Source: Candidatus Fermentibacterota bacterium (GTDB lineage: Bacteria; JAFGKV01). From it: a stretch of DNA of 13,508 nt. This document shows, one piece after another, positions 2,825-13,508 of this stretch; within the stretch, counting starts at the first letter, position 1; each line of letters starts with the position of its first letter. The stretch covers positions 1 through 13,508 of the forward strand of contig JAFGKV010000129.1 in NCBI GenBank assembly GCA_016928395.1. Direction: 5' to 3'. Position numbers and translations under genes: made by a program. Below the pieces are notes generated by a model. It was not told the origin of the DNA. It searched no databases and worked only from the letters and a program-made list of their open reading frames with translations.

Positions 2825-4068
2825 CGGGCATCATCCTCAGAAAAGGGACGATCGTTCCGGGCCATCCACGCCAAGTGCAGGAGAATCGCCGATATCAGGG
2901 TGCGAAACGTACCCACGGCAACTCCTCCCAAACGAACCCGGTCCAACAATTCCATGGGGTGGGGCCAGGTCTCGAAGGAATGGGGTGCCAGAGGGGCAAA
3001 GAGCAGCACCGACGCCTCCCGGGGGAACTGAAAGGTGTAGACCACCATGGCGATGCCCATCAGCGCGGTGAGAATCCCCACTCTGGGCCGAACGCTGTGC
3101 TGAATGGCCAGCAGCGGCACGAGCCACGCGAGCCACTGGGGATGGAAGTAGGTAAGGGCGAACATTGTGTACATCACCGAGGCGCTCCATCGCCAGATCT
3201 CGTCTATCCCCGCTGGACGGGCGGCCTGGGCAATGGCTAGATAGATCAGAAACAACGCCAGAGGAAAGAGGTAGATCACGTCTGACTGTAAGAGCGGCAC
3301 ATAGGCGGCGAAAAGGAAAACCCGATGGGGCATGGTGAGGATGCTCGCCAATTCTGCGCTGTCGCGGAAGGCTGGCAGCGAGGAGGAAACCGCAAGCTGC
3401 ACGGCAAGAACGAGCAGAAGCGGAACCACCAGCCCCGCGGTCATGACCAGTCGTTCCCGGCCCGAACGCGGCGCCAGCCACCAGAACAAAGGCAGCAGCA
3501 AGGCAGCGTAGAACCGCATGAGCACGGCGCCCATCAAGGCCAGGAAGCCGGCAAGAGGCCGGCGGCGATACAGCGCCACCAGCGACAGCACCACGAACAG
3601 CACCGGGAAGCTCTCGTAGCGCCCATAGAGGTGAATCCCGTAGAGGAGAAAGGGATTCCAGAGCCAGTAGGCCCGCACTGCGGTCCGGCGGTGCTCGGGA
3701 ATGATGGAGAGCAACAGGGCTAGCGCGCCCAACTCGGCGGCCAGATAGGGCAGTTTCAGCAGGATCAGGATTCCTGGCGCCCACGGGTGCTGGGCTAATG
3801 CCCGCCACCCGGTAGCATCGTCGAAGGGGTGAAGCCAGATGCCATGAGGGATCAGTGAAAAGAGGCGCAGGAGAGCCAACCACCCGGCGTGGACGAGGTG
3901 GACCAGCAGCTGATTGTGCTCTATGGCGGTGCCGTGATAGGCCAGGAGGTGTGACCTCCAGTACACGGAGTAGAGATCCCCGTGGAAACCCGCTCCCATG
4001 AGGGCAAACCGCAGCAGAATCGCCGGGACCACGAGCAAGATCTGACGCGTCCCAATCCTCTTCACCAT
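2821..4068 (-). CDS. Polytopic membrane mannosyltransferase-like protein (GT-C, GT87/PIG-M-like)
   Basis: This 415-residue integral membrane protein is unlike its two GT-C neighbours. Helix 1 (ILLVVPAILLRFALMG) is followed by a loop with HGDLYSVYWR. Later come YWLWNPFLLYG, GRYESFPVLFVVLSLVAL and RFYAALLLPLFWW. The 'LWNP...' and 'GR(Y/F)(D/E)..P.LF..L.L..L' pattern is seen in polyprenyl-phosphate-mannose-dependent GT-C enzymes of the GT87 and PIG-M groups. The open frame continues upstream to 4422, but that stretch is Arg/Gly/Pro-rich antisense-like sequence lying on the preceding gene. The ATG at 4068 immediately precedes a basic residue cluster and helix 1, and overlaps the preceding stop as ATGGTGA. 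The 3' end overlaps the next gene as ATGA. Substrate unknown. Confidence 0.83.
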   Translation of the reverse strand: MVKRIGTRQILLVVPAILLRFALMGAGFHGDLYSVYWRSHLLAYHGTAIEHNQLLVHLVHAGWLALLRLFSLIPHGIWLHPFDDATGWRALAQHPWAPGILILLKLPYLAAELGALALLLSIIPEHRRTAVRAYWLWNPFLLYGIHLYGRYESFPVLFVVLSLVALYRRRPLAGFLALMGAVLMRFYAALLLPLFWWLAPRSGRERLVMTAGLVVPLLLVLAVQLAVSSSLPAFRDSAELASILTMPHRVFLFAAYVPLLQSDVIYLFPLALFLIYLAIAQAARPAGIDEIWRWSASVMYTMFALTYFHPQWLAWLVPLLAIQHSVRPRVGILTALMGIAMVVYTFQFPREASVLLFAPLAPHSFETWPHPMELLDRVRLGGVAVGTFRTLISAILLHLAWMARNDRPFSEDDAR

Positions 4069-7280: not shown

Positions 7281-8687
7281 TCAGAATCCCCATCCGACCT
7301 CTTCCATGACGAACACCAGCAGGCCGCCGTAGACCCAGGCAGTGGGGAGACGGATGCTGTACCAGTCGTGATTGCGGCCCACGCCGCTCTGCGCTACCTT
7401 GAAAGGCTCGGTGGGGAGGAACCCGACGTAAAAGTCAGCCAGCACGGTGGAATCCGAGTAGGGTTGCGCCCGCACTGAGATCGGCGACCGCAGATCCTGA
7501 CGAATCGACACCCGCATCGTCCTCGACCATATTCCGTCGGAGGCGAATCCCTCCTCGACACACTCAGCCATTCTGATGTAGCCATAAGTACGGGGCGGAG
7601 CATCGGTCTCGCACCACCCATTATACACACCGCGGAGCCTCACCGTATCACCCGCTGCGATCCCTACAAAGACGGGGCTGTAGTTCTCCCCAGTGACGCC
7701 TCCGGGCGACCCATGCACATTCACGCCATCCCGCGCCGCAACGCCGGTACGCGGGCTGTATCGACGGCACTCCCCTGAAGACTTGTCCGCGCGAATCACC
7801 CCTTTATCGGTGCCGATCCAGTACTCCCGATCATCCTCATCCACGGACAGGATCGCCAAGGGCACGGGGGGCAGAGCCAGCTCCGTCCACGGCTCGAAGG
7901 TCGCAGTCTCTGGCGCGAACCGGATCAAACCGGAGGCTGGTTCAGCATTTGATTCATACCAGCGCTCGGCGGTCGCGAGGATGATAGAGTTGCCCTCAAC
8001 GAAGCAGTCGGTCACCACACCCTTGAAAATGCCGGACGGGTAGAAGCTGAATGTAGTACTCGGGAGATCAAAGACCCCGACACCGGCGGCGATGTATCCC
8101 TCCATATCACCGACATGGTACGCGAAGACGACCTTCCCGTTCCAGGCAACCGGGTGGAAGAACGGGAACTGACTCTGAGACCTACTCCAGGTTGCCATCG
8201 TGGCAGACAGAGGAGGCGGCGTCGGTGGAACGAAGATACGCCGTAGATGGCCATCATCGATAATGAGGGTATCCATGTTCACGACATACGTAACGTCACC
8301 CGAGCGGAGAGTGTCCGCCATGGTCCACGGCTTGCGCGCTACTCGTTTCGAGACCTCGAGACTCCCGGTGGCCCGATCGAAGTACGCCCTCCACCCCTGC
8401 ATCTCGACGGCGATGCGATCACCGGACTCTCGCAGGCCGTCGATCCTGTTCGACATGAGCCCATTGCCCACACCGTAGTTCGCCCAGGTCTCGTTTCGCC
8501 GGTCAAACACAAACAGCCCAAATGTGTTGCTGCCCCAGTCGGTGTTGCAGCCGCAGTAGACGAAGGAGCTGTCTACCAGGGTGTGTTCGATCAGAACCTC
8601 GTCGATCGAGTGCCTACTCTCGCCCCATGCGAGAGCGAGCTGTGGAATCACCAGGAGCAACGCGAGACGCACACCGGTCCGTGCCAT
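7281..8687 (-). CDS. Secreted beta-propeller-like protein with C-terminal SH3-like domain
   Basis: This 468-residue protein begins with a clear signal peptide (Arg-containing start, hydrophobic core, LALA at 17-20 before Trp21). The body resembles two-component-regulator-propeller repeats: FGLFVFDRRNETWANYG then NGLMSNRIDGL (56-85), and YWIGTDKGVIRADKSSGECRRYS (289-311). Both are typical of blades in which 'W.GT..GL.R.D' strands recur. The last ~65 residues fit a bacterial SH3-like domain: ISVRAQPYSDSTVL, then HDWYSIRL and AWVYGGLL. Such domains often bind peptidoglycan or other cell-wall material. No enzyme motif is seen. The ATG at 8687 has GAAGGGGGT eight bases upstream. It stands alone between gene-free stretches, downstream of menA in the same orientation. 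Blade number and ligand cannot be determined by eye. Confidence 0.8.
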   Translation of the reverse strand: MARTGVRLALLLVIPQLALAWGESRHSIDEVLIEHTLVDSSFVYCGCNTDWGSNTFGLFVFDRRNETWANYGVGNGLMSNRIDGLRESGDRIAVEMQGWRAYFDRATGSLEVSKRVARKPWTMADTLRSGDVTYVVNMDTLIIDDGHLRRIFVPPTPPPLSATMATWSRSQSQFPFFHPVAWNGKVVFAYHVGDMEGYIAAGVGVFDLPSTTFSFYPSGIFKGVVTDCFVEGNSIILATAERWYESNAEPASGLIRFAPETATFEPWTELALPPVPLAILSVDEDDREYWIGTDKGVIRADKSSGECRRYSPRTGVAARDGVNVHGSPGGVTGENYSPVFVGIAAGDTVRLRGVYNGWCETDAPPRTYGYIRMAECVEEGFASDGIWSRTMRVSIRQDLRSPISVRAQPYSDSTVLADFYVGFLPTEPFKVAQSGVGRNHDWYSIRLPTAWVYGGLLVFVMEEVGWGF

Positions 8688-8898: not shown

Positions 8899-9828
8899 TC
8901 AGAGCCCGAGAATCCTCCCAAGGACCAGACCCGCCGTGAACAGGAGCCCAAAGGTCAGGTTGAGTTGGGCGGTGGCCGCGTCGAGTACGACGAAGGGCGG
9001 GGGATCGCCCGTCGTGGGCCGGGCGTATGCACTACGGATGAGCCCGGTTGTTTGAGGGATAGCCAGAAAGACCAGGAGGCATGTCCACGGCATCCGCGGT
9101 GTGATAGCCCAGACCTGGCTCGCTGCAATCATGAGAACGGCCAGGAGGAGAGCGCCGGCGGTGAGCACGGCATAGTACAGGAAGGACCCACGATCACCGA
9201 GACGCTGGGCCAGTGACCGTGCCCCCAGTTCTCCGTCGCGTCCGATATCGCGCCAGTTATTGGCGTGAAGAATGCCGACGACGAGCATGGCCTGCGGGAA
9301 ACCCCATACCACGGGCGTCCATGTCAGGCGCCCTGTCTGCACGAACCAGCTTCCGGCTGCGACACCGACGCCGAAGGCGAACAGAATCGCGAGGTCACCG
9401 AGGCCGCGATACTTCAGATGCAACGGGGGCGCCGTGTAGCACACCGCAAGGAGCAGGCCGCCCAGGCCGATGGCCGCCACCAGCACGCCTCTGAGGAACA
9501 CGAAGTAGATTCCGATTCCGGCGCCAAAGATGGCGCAATAGGTGGCGAGCTTCAGGGCCTGCCGCGCCGTGATCAGCCCCCGGACCACTGCGCCGCTCAC
9601 CGGGATGACATGCCGGTCGATGCCCTTCGCATAGTCATAGGCGTCGTTGACCAGGTTGCCCGCCGCATGGATCAAGGCCACACCCAGGCTTGCGAGGAAC
9701 AGGTGAATGACATTGAGGGGCACCCCAGTATACCATGCCGCCGCCGCACCGATGAGCGCCGGCATGATGGATGCCGGAAATGCATACGGCCGAATAGCAA
9801 TCCAGAAAACTCGAAGTTGCGCGATCAT
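8899..9828 (-). CDS. menA: MenA-type 1,4-dihydroxy-2-naphthoate prenyltransferase (UbiA superfamily)
   Basis: This is a 309-residue polytopic UbiA-family enzyme. MenA attaches a polyprenyl chain to DHNA at the membrane, giving demethylmenaquinone. The first Asp-rich motif is NDAYDYAKGID (61-71). The second is HANNWRDIGRDGELGARSLAQRLG (188-211). Both bind the Mg-prenyl diphosphate. YTAPPLHLKYRGLGD (131-145) and the N-terminal RPYAFPASIMPALIGAA (13-29) are MenA-like. The ordering and the NNxRD form favour MenA over UbiA or chlorophyll synthases, but another UbiA-family substrate is not excluded. The ATG at 9828 lacks a strong ribosome binding site. The gene lies 156 bases downstream of the sulfatase gene, whose 5' end duplicates this gene's 5' end. 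Confidence 0.9.
   Translation of the reverse strand: MIAQLRVFWIAIRPYAFPASIMPALIGAAAAWYTGVPLNVIHLFLASLGVALIHAAGNLVNDAYDYAKGIDRHVIPVSGAVVRGLITARQALKLATYCAIFGAGIGIYFVFLRGVLVAAIGLGGLLLAVCYTAPPLHLKYRGLGDLAILFAFGVGVAAGSWFVQTGRLTWTPVVWGFPQAMLVVGILHANNWRDIGRDGELGARSLAQRLGDRGSFLYYAVLTAGALLLAVLMIAASQVWAITPRMPWTCLLVFLAIPQTTGLIRSAYARPTTGDPPPFVVLDAATAQLNLTFGLLFTAGLVLGRILGL
9743..9828 (-). repeat. menA copy of an 86-base direct repeat
   Basis: The first 86 bases of menA match 12254-12339, the start of the sulfatase gene, at 74 of 86 positions without gaps. A 31-base block (9750-9780) is identical. The match stops at the start codon on the 5' side and fades at about codon 29 on the 3' side. MenA is the likely source because this segment is a conserved part of the MenA family. 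Confidence 0.9.
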
Positions 9829-9984
9829 GACGACCAGTGCCTGCCCGTGCGTACTCGTCGACTGAGTATCATCCGGAAGTAGAGCGGGGTAGCCTCGCCT
9901 GGTTTGACAAAGCGGTCAGATGAGAAGCGCAGATGACTGTCTCGGCCATGTGTTGCTGAGCAATTCGCACTCACGCCAGCGCCG
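9829..9984. other. Intergenic DNA upstream of menA
   Basis: This stretch contains an imperfect dyad, TACTC (9852-9856) and GAGTA (9864-9868) around a GTCGAC core, about 23 bases upstream of the menA start. It would be a reasonable place for an operator, but the symmetry is imperfect. No confident promoter or terminator is visible. Confidence 0.3.
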
Positions 9985-12339
9985 TCACCGAGCATCCCCG
10001 TTGGAGTCTGATTCTGATTCCGACTCTGACAGGTATCCCAGGAGCCGTAGCTGCTCCCGCAGTTCGCCCGTTGGGCTGAATATGCGTGGCCTCGTCTTCG
10101 GCTGCAGCGGCCTCTCGGCGCGCGTCAGGGCAGACTGAAGGCTTTCGGCCATGGCGCGAGCAATCCCTGGCTCGTCGGCCAGGCGGTTCCGTGTCTCAGC
10201 CGGGTCTTCATCTAGGAAATAGAGTGCCGGTTCAAGGGAGTAGGGATCTCTTCGCGCGACACCTGCGGCGCCCTTCTCATCCAGAATGGCGATGTACTTC
10301 ATGCTGCCTGAGATGAGGCATGCTCTTCGCGTCTTCGATCGGCACTTGTCATTCAGGGCAAGCACTGGCACCACTCGGTGCTGCGTTTTCATCTCCAACA
10401 AGGGTCTGACACTGGCTCCGTCGCAACCCTGCGGGACAGTGAGGCCCAACAGCTCACACACGGTCGGCATAAGATCAACGGTGCTGATGGGGATATCGAC
10501 ATATCTCGTCCCTCGGCAACTGATACCGGGAGCATGGAGATAGAACGGTACACTCAGCAGTTCCGTGTGCACCGAGGATGCCGAGTGCTCGGCGTATAAT
10601 CGGGAGTGATCCCAGAACTCCTCACCATGGTCGCTAAGCACTATGACCACCGTATTCGACCAGAAGCGCAGGCTGTCCAACAGGGCGAACAGCCCCACAG
10701 TTGCATCACATGCGTTGGCAACGCCACCATCATACGCCGCTTGCACATAGGTGGTCTCCGCAGGGGTCAGGTGTTGCCAGGGAATCGAACTCGGGTCTAT
10801 CGGATTCTCTCCCGCGGACAGGTCGCCAAGCCGGCCCCGCGGTAGTTCCCGGCAGAACCTGTCCCTCGTGTAGGGCACGTGGCTTTCGTAGGTATGCACA
10901 AAGAGGAAGAACGGACGGGGCGGGGTACCTCTCAGCCAGGCACGGAGCGGTGGAAAGACATCCTCGACCTTGCCGTATCCATCGAGTGGGTAGTGGAACT
11001 CGTGGAACCCCTGTTCGAACCCTGGGGTGCGCAGTGCGCCTCCACCCGTGAAGGCCGCGCAGTAGTACCCGTTCTTCCGCAGGATCTCGCTAAGGGTTGT
11101 GTACTGGCGAGGAACTACTTCTTCCGTATGTATGTTGAGGAAACGCGAAGTCATGAACTTGGCAGTTGCAGGCACTGTCACTGGCCCCGCCGAGTAGGCC
11201 TTCCGAAAGATGAAGAAGCCCTTCTCGTCTGCAATCGAATCCAGCCGGGTTGATGTGGGCCGTGTGGTGTAGCCATGGGACCCCAGCCGGTCAGCTCGCA
11301 TCGTGTCAAGATCGATCAGAATCACATTGTACGCGCCTGGAGGCATGCTCCTCCGGGTGAGGATCACCGGTTCGCCAATCGCGATCACCTCAGAGGGCCG
11401 CCCCTCCGAAATGAACCTGAGGCTGTCGCACCGATCCGGGAGAGGCTCCTTGAGGGTGTGGGTGAGCCATGGCCCATCTCGTGTGCCCGGACTATCTTGA
11501 AGCGGGGCTTCCCGCCACTGGCCGTCGATCCAGATCTCGGCACGGACGCCGGCAATCCCAAGAAGCTCTGCCGAGTGGAACTGCACTCTTGCTTCTACAT
11601 CTCTCTTTGGAAGGGTCAGCGAAAGCGTATCTTGACCAACAAGAGCAACGCAGTCCCTCGTGACCCCATTGGCCGAAAGGGGAAACTTCCGCATCATTAG
11701 CATGCCATCGGGCGTATCACCGAATCCACGCACGTCTAACGAGGCCAGGGCTCTCGCTCGCTCGCGCTCCCAATTATCCGTAGCGCGGGGCATTGCGAGG
11801 ATTCTGACTCCTTGGATCGGTATCTCTTCATCACGCGGTAGAGGGAACCTGATCGCCAGTGTCGTGACCCCCTCGTGAGGTACTTCGAGCCACAACTGTG
11901 TGCGTTTCCTCAAGAAGACTTCGCTCCTGCTGGAGTCACCATCTCCCTTCGCGACAAGAACTACGGGGTGAGAGAAGTCGATCGGCTCTTTCGGGAAGAG
12001 TGAGCAGAGCATGATCTCGTCTTCCGATAGAGAAGCCCGAACCTTCAGCTCGACCTGTTGGCCCTGCCCGAGCAGTGACCGGCTTTCCGCCCGAAGCCCG
12101 ATGGCGGCGATCTGGTCTCCGTACCTGATTTCGTCATCGATGCTGCCGATATCCGCAACCACTCGCCATGGCCCGGCAGCCTCAGGCTCAGGGATCTGGT
12201 CCAAGAGGCCGACAACTGCCGGGTGCTCCGCCGCGCAGCCACAGAGAAGCACGGCCGCAGCGATGAGCGCCGGCATGATGGATGCCGGAAAGGCATAGGG
12301 CCGCATCGCAATCCACAAGCCTCGAAGTTGATCCTTCAT
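9985..12339 (-). CDS. Sulfatase/alkaline-phosphatase-superfamily protein with MenA-derived N-terminus
   Basis: 784 residues. Residues 1-35 form a basic start plus hydrophobic segment ending LLCGC, a lipobox-like site with Cys35 as candidate lipidated residue, so an exported lipoprotein is likely. Residues 4-29 are near-identical to MenA. Residues about 40-330 form a probably beta-rich domain I do not recognise. The catalytic domain starts at NVILIDLDTMRADRLGSHGY (338-357). It continues with AYSAGPVTVPATAKF (381-395), HTYESHVPY (482-490) and SDHGEEFWDH (569-578). The nucleophile position is Thr388, where formylglycine sulfatases need Cys or Ser, so a phospho-transferase or phosphohydrolase role (as with Thr in LtaS-like enzymes) is at least as likely as sulfate hydrolysis. 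The tail ends with SESESESDS. Start ATG 12339 has GGGAG eight bases upstream; Met12 (12306) is an alternative. Confidence 0.87.
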   Translation of the reverse strand: MKDQLRGLWIAMRPYAFPASIMPALIAAAVLLCGCAAEHPAVVGLLDQIPEPEAAGPWRVVADIGSIDDEIRYGDQIAAIGLRAESRSLLGQGQQVELKVRASLSEDEIMLCSLFPKEPIDFSHPVVLVAKGDGDSSRSEVFLRKRTQLWLEVPHEGVTTLAIRFPLPRDEEIPIQGVRILAMPRATDNWERERARALASLDVRGFGDTPDGMLMMRKFPLSANGVTRDCVALVGQDTLSLTLPKRDVEARVQFHSAELLGIAGVRAEIWIDGQWREAPLQDSPGTRDGPWLTHTLKEPLPDRCDSLRFISEGRPSEVIAIGEPVILTRRSMPPGAYNVILIDLDTMRADRLGSHGYTTRPTSTRLDSIADEKGFFIFRKAYSAGPVTVPATAKFMTSRFLNIHTEEVVPRQYTTLSEILRKNGYYCAAFTGGGALRTPGFEQGFHEFHYPLDGYGKVEDVFPPLRAWLRGTPPRPFFLFVHTYESHVPYTRDRFCRELPRGRLGDLSAGENPIDPSSIPWQHLTPAETTYVQAAYDGGVANACDATVGLFALLDSLRFWSNTVVIVLSDHGEEFWDHSRLYAEHSASSVHTELLSVPFYLHAPGISCRGTRYVDIPISTVDLMPTVCELLGLTVPQGCDGASVRPLLEMKTQHRVVPVLALNDKCRSKTRRACLISGSMKYIAILDEKGAAGVARRDPYSLEPALYFLDEDPAETRNRLADEPGIARAMAESLQSALTRAERPLQPKTRPRIFSPTGELREQLRLLGYLSESESESDSNGDAR
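10007..10030. repeat. Hexamer microsatellite encoding the Ser/Glu tail
   Basis: Four imperfect plus-strand hexamers run in tandem: TCTGAT, TCTGAT, TCCGAC, TCTGAC. On the coding strand they give alternating Ser with Glu or Asp just before the sulfatase stop codon. Whole-hexamer slippage would change tail length without a frameshift. Confidence 0.7.
12254..12339 (-). repeat. Sulfatase copy of the 86-base direct repeat
   Basis: This is the partner of 9743-9828. Differences are concentrated in codons 1-16 (11 changes, including silent ones at Ala11, Pro14 and Ala16). Codons 17-26 are identical at every base. Codon 27 differs by one base (Gly in MenA, Ala here). Confidence 0.9.
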
Positions 12340-12373: not shown

Positions 12374-12393
12374 CTATTCTAATGTTAGAATAG
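12374..12393. promoter_or_regulatory. 20-bp AT-rich palindrome upstream of the sulfatase; candidate operator
   Basis: CTATTCTAA (12374-12382) and TTAGAATAG (12385-12393) are perfect inverted repeats separated by TG. This A+T-rich island lies in otherwise GC-rich DNA, 35 bases before the sulfatase ATG. On the minus strand it contains TAGAAT, one base off a -10 hexamer, though no good -35 is seen. A dimeric repressor overlapping the promoter is plausible. A transcription-termination role is less likely, as no T-run follows. Confidence 0.5.
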
Positions 12394-12411: not shown

Positions 12412-12606
12412 GCCGGTGCGCCGGGGGTCGAAGATGCGCACGCGTCTCCACCCCGTGCGACCAGGAGGGCGCCGTCGTCGTTGCGGGCCTCTTTGCCCGC
12501 GGGTGCATCGACCGCAGCCAGAATGCGTTCACCGGCAATCCCTGGCACTTCATTCAAGGCATCCCCGGAGCACGGCGTCAAGGCCTCGTCCGCGCCCGAC
12601 GCGGCG
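12412..12606. other. Intergenic DNA with coding-like fragments
   Basis: No complete gene. A plus-strand frame without a start, open from 12399 to a stop at 12657, has mostly G or C third positions and reads protein-like in part (GNPWHFIQGIPGA). A minus-strand frame ending in the 20-bp palindrome reads RVRIFDPRRTGEERLFKLF before a stop, with similarly biased codons over about 18 codons. They cannot both be real. Chance in GC-rich DNA or gene remnants are both possible. Confidence 0.25.
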
Positions 12607-13508
12607 TCATGGTGAGTCCTGCCGTGTACGCACGTCATCTTTGGATGACTGCCATGTGAGGATGTGGATCCTCCACCCGGGCACTACCGTAGGGCAGGTA
12701 ATGCTCCGCTCTGTCTCGTAGCCGGGCACCACACTCAAAGCCACGACATACCGAGGTTCGATCTGGGGCGCCCACAATCGTATCCACCACGGCGCATAGG
12801 CTGCCGGGGTGTGCTGGGTGGACGACCCGCGCCAGGCATGTCGCCAGCCCGCCCACTCGTAGCCGCCGTCAATGGTATCAGGATCAACACCCTGCTCCTC
12901 CAACCCTGCGATCTGCTCCCCGCGGCACCGGTTCCACGACAGATAGTCGTGGGTGCCGATGACCGACAGTATCCCCATGACGGCCATTGAGGCCCAGACC
13001 CACGGCCGAATCCGGCCGAGCTTCGGCACCAGGTCAATCACGAACAGCGGCAGGAGGGGCACGAGGTACCGATCGTAGAACGGCGGAAGAGCCGCCAGAA
13101 TCGCCAGCCAGACGATGCCCAAGGCCAAGCCTCCCCGCGCGCGGAGCGCTCCCCAAAACGCCCAGAGCCAGAAGGCGCTACCACCCATGCCTACTACGAT
13201 CGCGCGCAACAGAGACGGGCCAAGAACCAAACCCCCGATCCACGGGATGATCCCCAGCAAGAGCCCGGCCCACGCCGGCAATGCCGACGGTGGAAGGACC
13301 CGCCCCACCAGGCCGATGGCGGCGCCGAGACTGCCCACCGACAGGGTCATCCAGAACCACGATGGCAGCGGGGGAGGCGCCCCCTGCACCCCGATGAATC
13401 CCAACCCCGCCGGATGCAGCACGTTCTCAAGGCTCGGCAAGGGCAACGGGGCGGGAGCGCCCAGCCACCACGCCTGGCCCCACGCCCACAGTATGAAGCA
13501 CGTCGGAA
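12607..13508 (-). CDS. C-terminal part of a GT39-like membrane glycosyltransferase (cut by window edge)
   Basis: The frame is open to the window edge, so the 5' end is missing; the codons before the in-frame TTG at 13446 continue as WWLGAPAPLPSLENVLHP, so that TTG is not the start. About 300 residues are visible. Several hydrophobic helices are followed by FYDRYLVPLLPLFVIDL, the conserved 'RY(L)(L)P(L)' segment found before the last helix of GT39/PMT-like enzymes. A soluble tail of roughly 100 residues follows (TIDGGYEWAGWRHAWRG onwards). The catalytic first loop with its acidic pair would lie outside the window. A polyprenyl-phosphate-sugar-dependent transferase is the likely role. It precedes the sulfatase on the same strand with 267 bases between them. 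Confidence 0.8.
   Translation of the reverse strand, partial: PTCFILWAWGQAWWLGAPAPLPLPSLENVLHPAGLGFIGVQGAPPPLPSWFWMTLSVGSLGAAIGLVGRVLPPSALPAWAGLLLGIIPWIGGLVLGPSLLRAIVVGMGGSAFWLWAFWGALRARGGLALGIVWLAILAALPPFYDRYLVPLLPLFVIDLVPKLGRIRPWVWASMAVMGILSVIGTHDYLSWNRCRGEQIAGLEEQGVDPDTIDGGYEWAGWRHAWRGSSTQHTPAAYAPWWIRLWAPQIEPRYVVALSVVPGYETERSITCPTVVPGWRIHILTWQSSKDDVRTRQDSP

Follow-up and report, generated by a model that had tools for sequence, protein, structure and literature searches.

A sulfatase-like lipoprotein gene carrying a menA-derived 5′ end beside an intact menA gene in a Candidatus Fermentibacterota genome

The window analysed here, a stretch of 13,508 nucleotides from a Candidatus Fermentibacterota bacterium, is the entire contig C167 of a draft genome of 4.79 Mb in 343 contigs (G000). 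The comparison set consisted of three genomes of the phylum: G000 itself, G001, which belongs to the same genus, and G002. On the minus strand of the window, transcription runs through the 3′ part of a gene for a glycosyltransferase-like membrane protein (12607–13446), a gene for a sulfatase-like lipoprotein of 784 aa (9985–12339), and a gene for a menA-type UbiA-family prenyltransferase of 309 aa (8899–9828). Between the first two lie, on the same strand, the probable C-terminal tail remnant of a SpoIIE-type phosphatase gene (12453–12590) and an 18-bp palindrome (12375–12392). Directly downstream of menA, positions 7281–8687 encode a 468-aa predicted exported protein, which gave no match in Pfam or NCBIfam and had no homologue among the compared loci.

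Pfam assigns the two central genes to the Sulfatase (PF00884; residues 338–632, E 6.1e-28) and UbiA families, as the earlier note had proposed from the DNA sequence. The sulfatase-like family includes nine homologues across G000, G001, and G002, with several copies per genome; its N-terminal domain of ~300 aa has no Pfam match, and the residues D345, D570, and H571, in the metal-ligand motifs of the Sulfatase/alkaline-phosphatase superfamily, are invariant in the six aligned members. Formylglycine-dependent (type I) sulfatases carry the motif C/S-x-P-S-R, whose Cys or Ser becomes the formylglycine. In the six aligned family members, this motif is absent from the aligned nucleophile position, which is occupied by an invariant threonine (Thr388, in T-V-P-A-T). 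As Thr388 stands in place of Cys or Ser, formylglycine-type sulfatase activity of the 784-aa protein is doubtful, and a phosphodiester or transfer chemistry would be as likely; “sulfatase” is here a superfamily label only. Among solved structures, the nearest in sequence are those of phosphonate monoester hydrolases and sulfatases; the matches lie mostly in the C-terminal half.

Among the full-length family members, the best catalytic identity was 54%; no close orthologue was found among the family members, and the family tree gave the gene no well-supported place. In a scan of genome contigs, only a G002 contig contained a full-length relative. We also considered a foreign origin of the gene on the basis of composition, and rejected it: its GC3 (0.67) equals that of its own paralogues (0.67–0.68), with most neighbours at 0.73–0.79, so there is no sign of a recent transfer from elsewhere. 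In G002 (L125 1–4647, G002:C110), a sulfatase-like gene of the same family lies ~1.3 kb downstream of menA on the same strand, and the sulfatase–menA neighbourhood may be an old or recombination-prone site. The downstream flank of the sulfatase in the window had no match to any compared locus.

The window menA matches the UbiA profile over its full length (PF01040, 3e-31). Its best NCBIfam models are of the menA type but score below the cut-offs (TIGR00751, 94.0 vs 102.15), so MenA substrate specificity is likely rather than certain. On another G001 contig (L127, G001:C454, 3292–4345), we observed menA pieces of which the 3′ part is 74% identical to the window menA and the 5′ part about 50%. 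The latter belongs to a different UbiA protein. The pieces, with a frame change near 3584–3594, lie next to a ferredoxin-domain protein and are possibly an assembly chimera.

The 5′ ends of the sulfatase gene and menA are alike at the DNA level. We indicate with S the sulfatase copy, with M the window menA, and with G the menA of G001, all compared codon by codon. A repeat search identified codons 1–29 of S (12253–12339) and of M (9742–9828) as an ungapped direct repeat of 87 nt, with 86% identity and a spacing of 2511 bp. S and M differ at 13 of these 87 bases, 12 of them among the first 86, and codons 17–26 are identical. The counts given in the earlier note (74 of the first 86 bases matching without gaps in the same orientation about 2.5 kb apart, 22 of 26 residues agreeing between positions 4 and 29, ten consecutive codons without a silent change) were all reproduced. 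The match is far beyond chance: for an exact core of 30 bp, shuffled sequences give an expected count of 0. When the 4.79-Mb assembly was probed with 106 bp, the matches were the probe itself and menA (E 2.5e-23), with no third copy of the menA 5′ end in the whole genome. Protein searches also link the two N-termini (E 4e-7 and 2.8e-6). With 86% identity over 87 nt in phase, the DNA ancestry is shared, confirming that codons 1–29 of the sulfatase gene are a menA-derived 5′ end, in frame, as had been claimed.

The join falls exactly between codons 29 and 30, within the signal peptide’s hydrophobic core and just before V-LLCGC. From codon 30 onward, M and G agree at many positions where S differs; hence, S consists of menA sequence up to codon 29 and contains none beyond. 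The previously described extent of the match, from the start codon to about codon 29, holds at its far end but not at its beginning: S and M differ at four of the six bases of codons 2–3, and the likeness of M to other menA genes starts at codon 4 (about 9817–9819). The locus consists, then, of a sulfatase-like lipoprotein gene fused in frame behind menA codon 29, with an intact menA and its own copy of the 5′ end directly downstream.

We consider it fairly probable that this chimeric gene was formed at the menA locus itself. The same-genus comparison relies on one genome, G001, whose menA start lies on contig C218, has 80% protein identity to the window menA, and stops at codon 59, at the contig end. 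In G001, a glycosyltransferase-like homologue (L126 3309–5117; syntenic with the window gene and 63.5% identical over 299 aa) is followed by an intact GAF/SpoIIE-type phosphatase gene of 876 codons, in which Pfam found the SpoIIE domain, then by the palindrome CTATTCTCACATTAGAATAGTG, and then by menA. In the window, the glycosyltransferase-like gene is followed by a match to the phosphatase tail, by the same palindrome (TATTCTAACATTAGAATA), and by the start codon of the sulfatase. The phosphatase match covers the last 46 residues, 19 of which are identical, and is weak at 31 bits (tblastn E 1e-6 in a 300-nt test, 0.001 on the whole window).

In the sulfatase copy, likeness to the G001 menA includes the start codon (85 nt, 82%; L126 to window position 12338), and in the window’s menA it begins only at codon 4. 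Codons 2–3 encode K-D in both S and the G001 menA, and I-A in M. The upstream flank of the present menA (9829–9984) has no likeness to that of the G001 menA or to that of the sulfatase, with alignment scores not above those of shuffles (30 against a shuffle mean of 29.7 for the flanks of S and M). A simple tandem duplication of menA including its upstream region was rejected, because the copies have no common upstream sequence. As the landmarks of the G001 menA locus are found in the upstream flank of the sulfatase and not in that of the window menA, the sulfatase is likelier to occupy the original start region of menA. Synteny thus supports, as the most likely arrangement, that the sulfatase copy sits in menA’s original place with the original flank, and that the front end of the present menA was regenerated next to a new flank. 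The palindrome alone would be weak evidence for the locus, since dozens of sites occur in both genomes of the genus; it is its combination with the phosphatase remnant, the order of the genes, and the pattern of codons 1–3 that carries the case, of which this is the most economical reading.

The earlier note had proposed the opposite direction: a local copy of the menA 5′ end placed in front of a resident sulfatase. The copied end would have replaced the start of a sulfatase already lying upstream of menA, and menA would have served as an undisturbed donor. In favour of this, the copy does end beside the sulfatase, and menA as it now stands is complete. We nevertheless consider this unlikely: the probable phosphatase tail, the palindrome, and the likeness up to the start codon belong to the sulfatase’s flank and not to that of the window menA, and it is S, not M, that matches the G001 menA at codons 2–3.

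The age of the duplication also bears on the formation of the chimera at the menA locus. Over codons 4–29, 9 of 78 bases distinguish S from M, whereas S–G and M–G differences both amount to 15 of 78; over codons 1–29, there are 10 bases at which S and M agree with each other and not with G001. The lower divergence between S and M suggests, on a rough clock, a duplication younger than the split from G001, yet not very recent. Gene conversion, which had been mentioned to explain the identical codons, is not needed, because conservation against G001 is likewise higher in codons 17–29 (6 of 39 bases differ between S and G there, 9 of 39 in codons 4–16). An older fusion, predating the split, can nonetheless be conceived: in G001, recombination between the direct repeats would then have removed the sulfatase and left the menA start now seen there. 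Indeed, recombination of 87-bp repeats 2.5 kb apart yields exactly the arrangement seen in G001, an S-like start followed by menA. We regard this as improbable, as the bases shared by S and M against G001 and their lower divergence speak against it, and it would require gene conversion between S and M.

At the protein level, the join falls within a predicted signal peptide. From codon 30 onward, the sulfatase sequence (VLLCGCAAEHPAVVGLLDQIPEPEAAGPW) aligns with family N-termini such as CAGPQPSFVGLLDQITDGEPTGSW of G002 and CTRPTLGVLSLLDQIPEEEPAGPW of a paralogue on contig C260. Its codons 30–35 (VLLCGC; 12235–12252, minus strand) are not menA-like and represent the end of the sulfatase’s own signal peptide, with the lipobox LLCGC and Cys35. 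The whole N-terminus has basic residues at K2, R6, and R13, a hydrophobic core (ALIAAAVLLC), and an [AGS]-Cys lipobox, and a PS00013-type pattern is matched at Cys35. The hydropathy of the core is 2.98, within the family range of 2.1–3.3. In the classical lipobox rule, the Cys lies between positions 15 and 35, so that Cys35 is at its limit. This residue is invariant in all six aligned family members, and its spacing to LLDQI is the same as in the G002 protein.

From these features we infer a hybrid signal on a predicted lipoprotein, in which MenA gives the charged n-region and half of the core (the segment encoded by codons 1–29), and the sulfatase gives the end of the core and the lipobox. 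The idea that the menA segment had become a new export or lipoprotein signal is thereby supported for the front of the signal but not for the whole of it. Wherever the N-terminus of another family member could be read, it was a short, ordinary lipoprotein signal without MenA likeness. These relatives lack the menA segment, so the check that the earlier note had set for itself, a search for sulfatase homologues that share the N-terminus without a menA neighbour, did not refute its reading.

It is also conceivable that the fusion is real but that the menA part is mostly untranslated or unneeded, with translation starting at Met12 (MRPYAFPASIMPALIAAAVLLCGC), which alone would give a lipoprotein signal of standard length. 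The shorter form satisfies the lipobox rule, with the Cys at position 24, and codon 12 is ATG in S and G001 and ATT in M. However, the first ATG is preceded, at a distance of 3 bases, by a strong purine-rich stretch resembling a ribosome-binding site (GGGAGAGGGG), and none is found at normal spacing before codon 12, which makes this start quite unlikely. Least of all do we favour an assembly or binning artefact joining two unrelated fragments in silico: the window is a single short contig of a 343-contig draft and the menA contig C454 of G001 looks chimeric, but no second site in the assembly contains the junction sequence, the two parts are joined in frame within an open frame of 784 codons that preserves the Cys-to-LLDQI spacing of the G002 protein, each flank is either syntenic or specific to menA, and S, with its 12 differences in 86 bases, is not a misplaced copy of M.

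Under formation of the chimera at the menA locus, the front end of the present menA would have been duplicated from about codon 4, and two routes could have led to this. In the first, the sulfatase would have been inserted at menA codon 29 with a target duplication of 78–87 bp. The second would start from the menA-then-sulfatase order of G002: after a tandem duplication with its left end at menA codon 4, a deletion preserving the frame would have joined menA codon 29 to the interior of the sulfatase’s signal peptide, and the distal sulfatase copy would have been lost. This second route would consist of known bacterial events and would explain the reversed gene order; no second sulfatase remnant, as expected from a menA–sulfatase–menA–sulfatase intermediate, was found downstream of menA.

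By either route, the basic N-terminus of MenA, together with the front half of the protein’s first membrane helix, could act as the n-region and half of the h-region of a Sec signal. The sulfatase’s own LLCGC would complete the core, with cleavage and lipidation at Cys35, and the expected product would be an exported lipoprotein with the same mature protein as its relatives. The sulfatase would be expressed from the former promoter and start site of menA, with menA now the downstream gene. On the evidence of one contig and one locus in one draft genome, we lean towards the view that the enzyme gene came to lie within the first-helix region of a prenyltransferase gene, that it thereby acquired both its site of expression and a functional hybrid lipoprotein signal, and that the donor was restored behind it.

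The locus presents a clean bacterial 5′-end exchange, known in kind and unusual in its donor. In the terminal reassortment of type III effectors, 5′ regions and N-terminal export signals are exchanged (Stavrinides et al. 2006, cited in PMC6460904). The present case resembles it in that an export signal and its upstream region are joined to an unrelated coding region to give a new secreted chimera; here too, the 5′ region and N-terminus were exchanged and the remainder is homologous to a family with other N-termini. The effector donors are other exported proteins of a type III secretion system, whereas here the 5′ end comes from a multi-helix enzyme of the cytoplasmic membrane, export would follow the Sec/lipoprotein route, and the donor contributed only one half of the signal core. 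A second parallel is promoter capture (Anderson and Roth 1978; Li and Bock 2019, cited in PMC11111574), in which a tandem duplication or a deletion fuses a coding region, without long homology, to the expression region of an adjacent gene; in our case, the fusion also adds 29 codons of protein, and the donor gene is intact downstream. Compared with the sulfatase-like lipoproteins of the Fermentibacteria (G000, G001, and G002), the mature protein is the same, namely, the Cys, a short linker, SLLDQIP..AGPW, and the sulfatase-like domain, whereas the signal peptides of the paralogues with a readable N-terminus are unrelated to MenA. Our literature search retrieved no case in which a prenyltransferase’s first helix makes up half of a lipoprotein signal while the donor survives beside it, and nothing close on the gain of a signal from a membrane helix.

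The gain or replacement of an export signal in bacteria is rarely caught in the act. At this locus, comparison with a single relative suffices to identify the donor, the recipient, the breakpoint, and the original flank, and the donor is a membrane enzyme, not an exported protein. If this is true, the N-terminal helices of membrane enzymes could be a ready reservoir of export signals. For automatic annotation, the locus is a trap, in that a protein can have a menA-like N-terminus without being a prenyltransferase.

Finally, the 18-bp palindrome (TATTCTNAyrTNAGAATA) is a repeat found genus-wide. Allowing up to two mismatches, we counted ~60 matches per strand in both G000 and G001 (forward and reverse matches overlap), with 0 matches to the reversed pattern used as control and none to the palindrome in G002 by the same search. 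In some of the copies inspected (L138, L141, and L142 of the set L136–L143), the flanking bases also pair, giving hairpins of up to about 38 nt. The element could be a genus-specific operator, a hairpin, or a small repeat.
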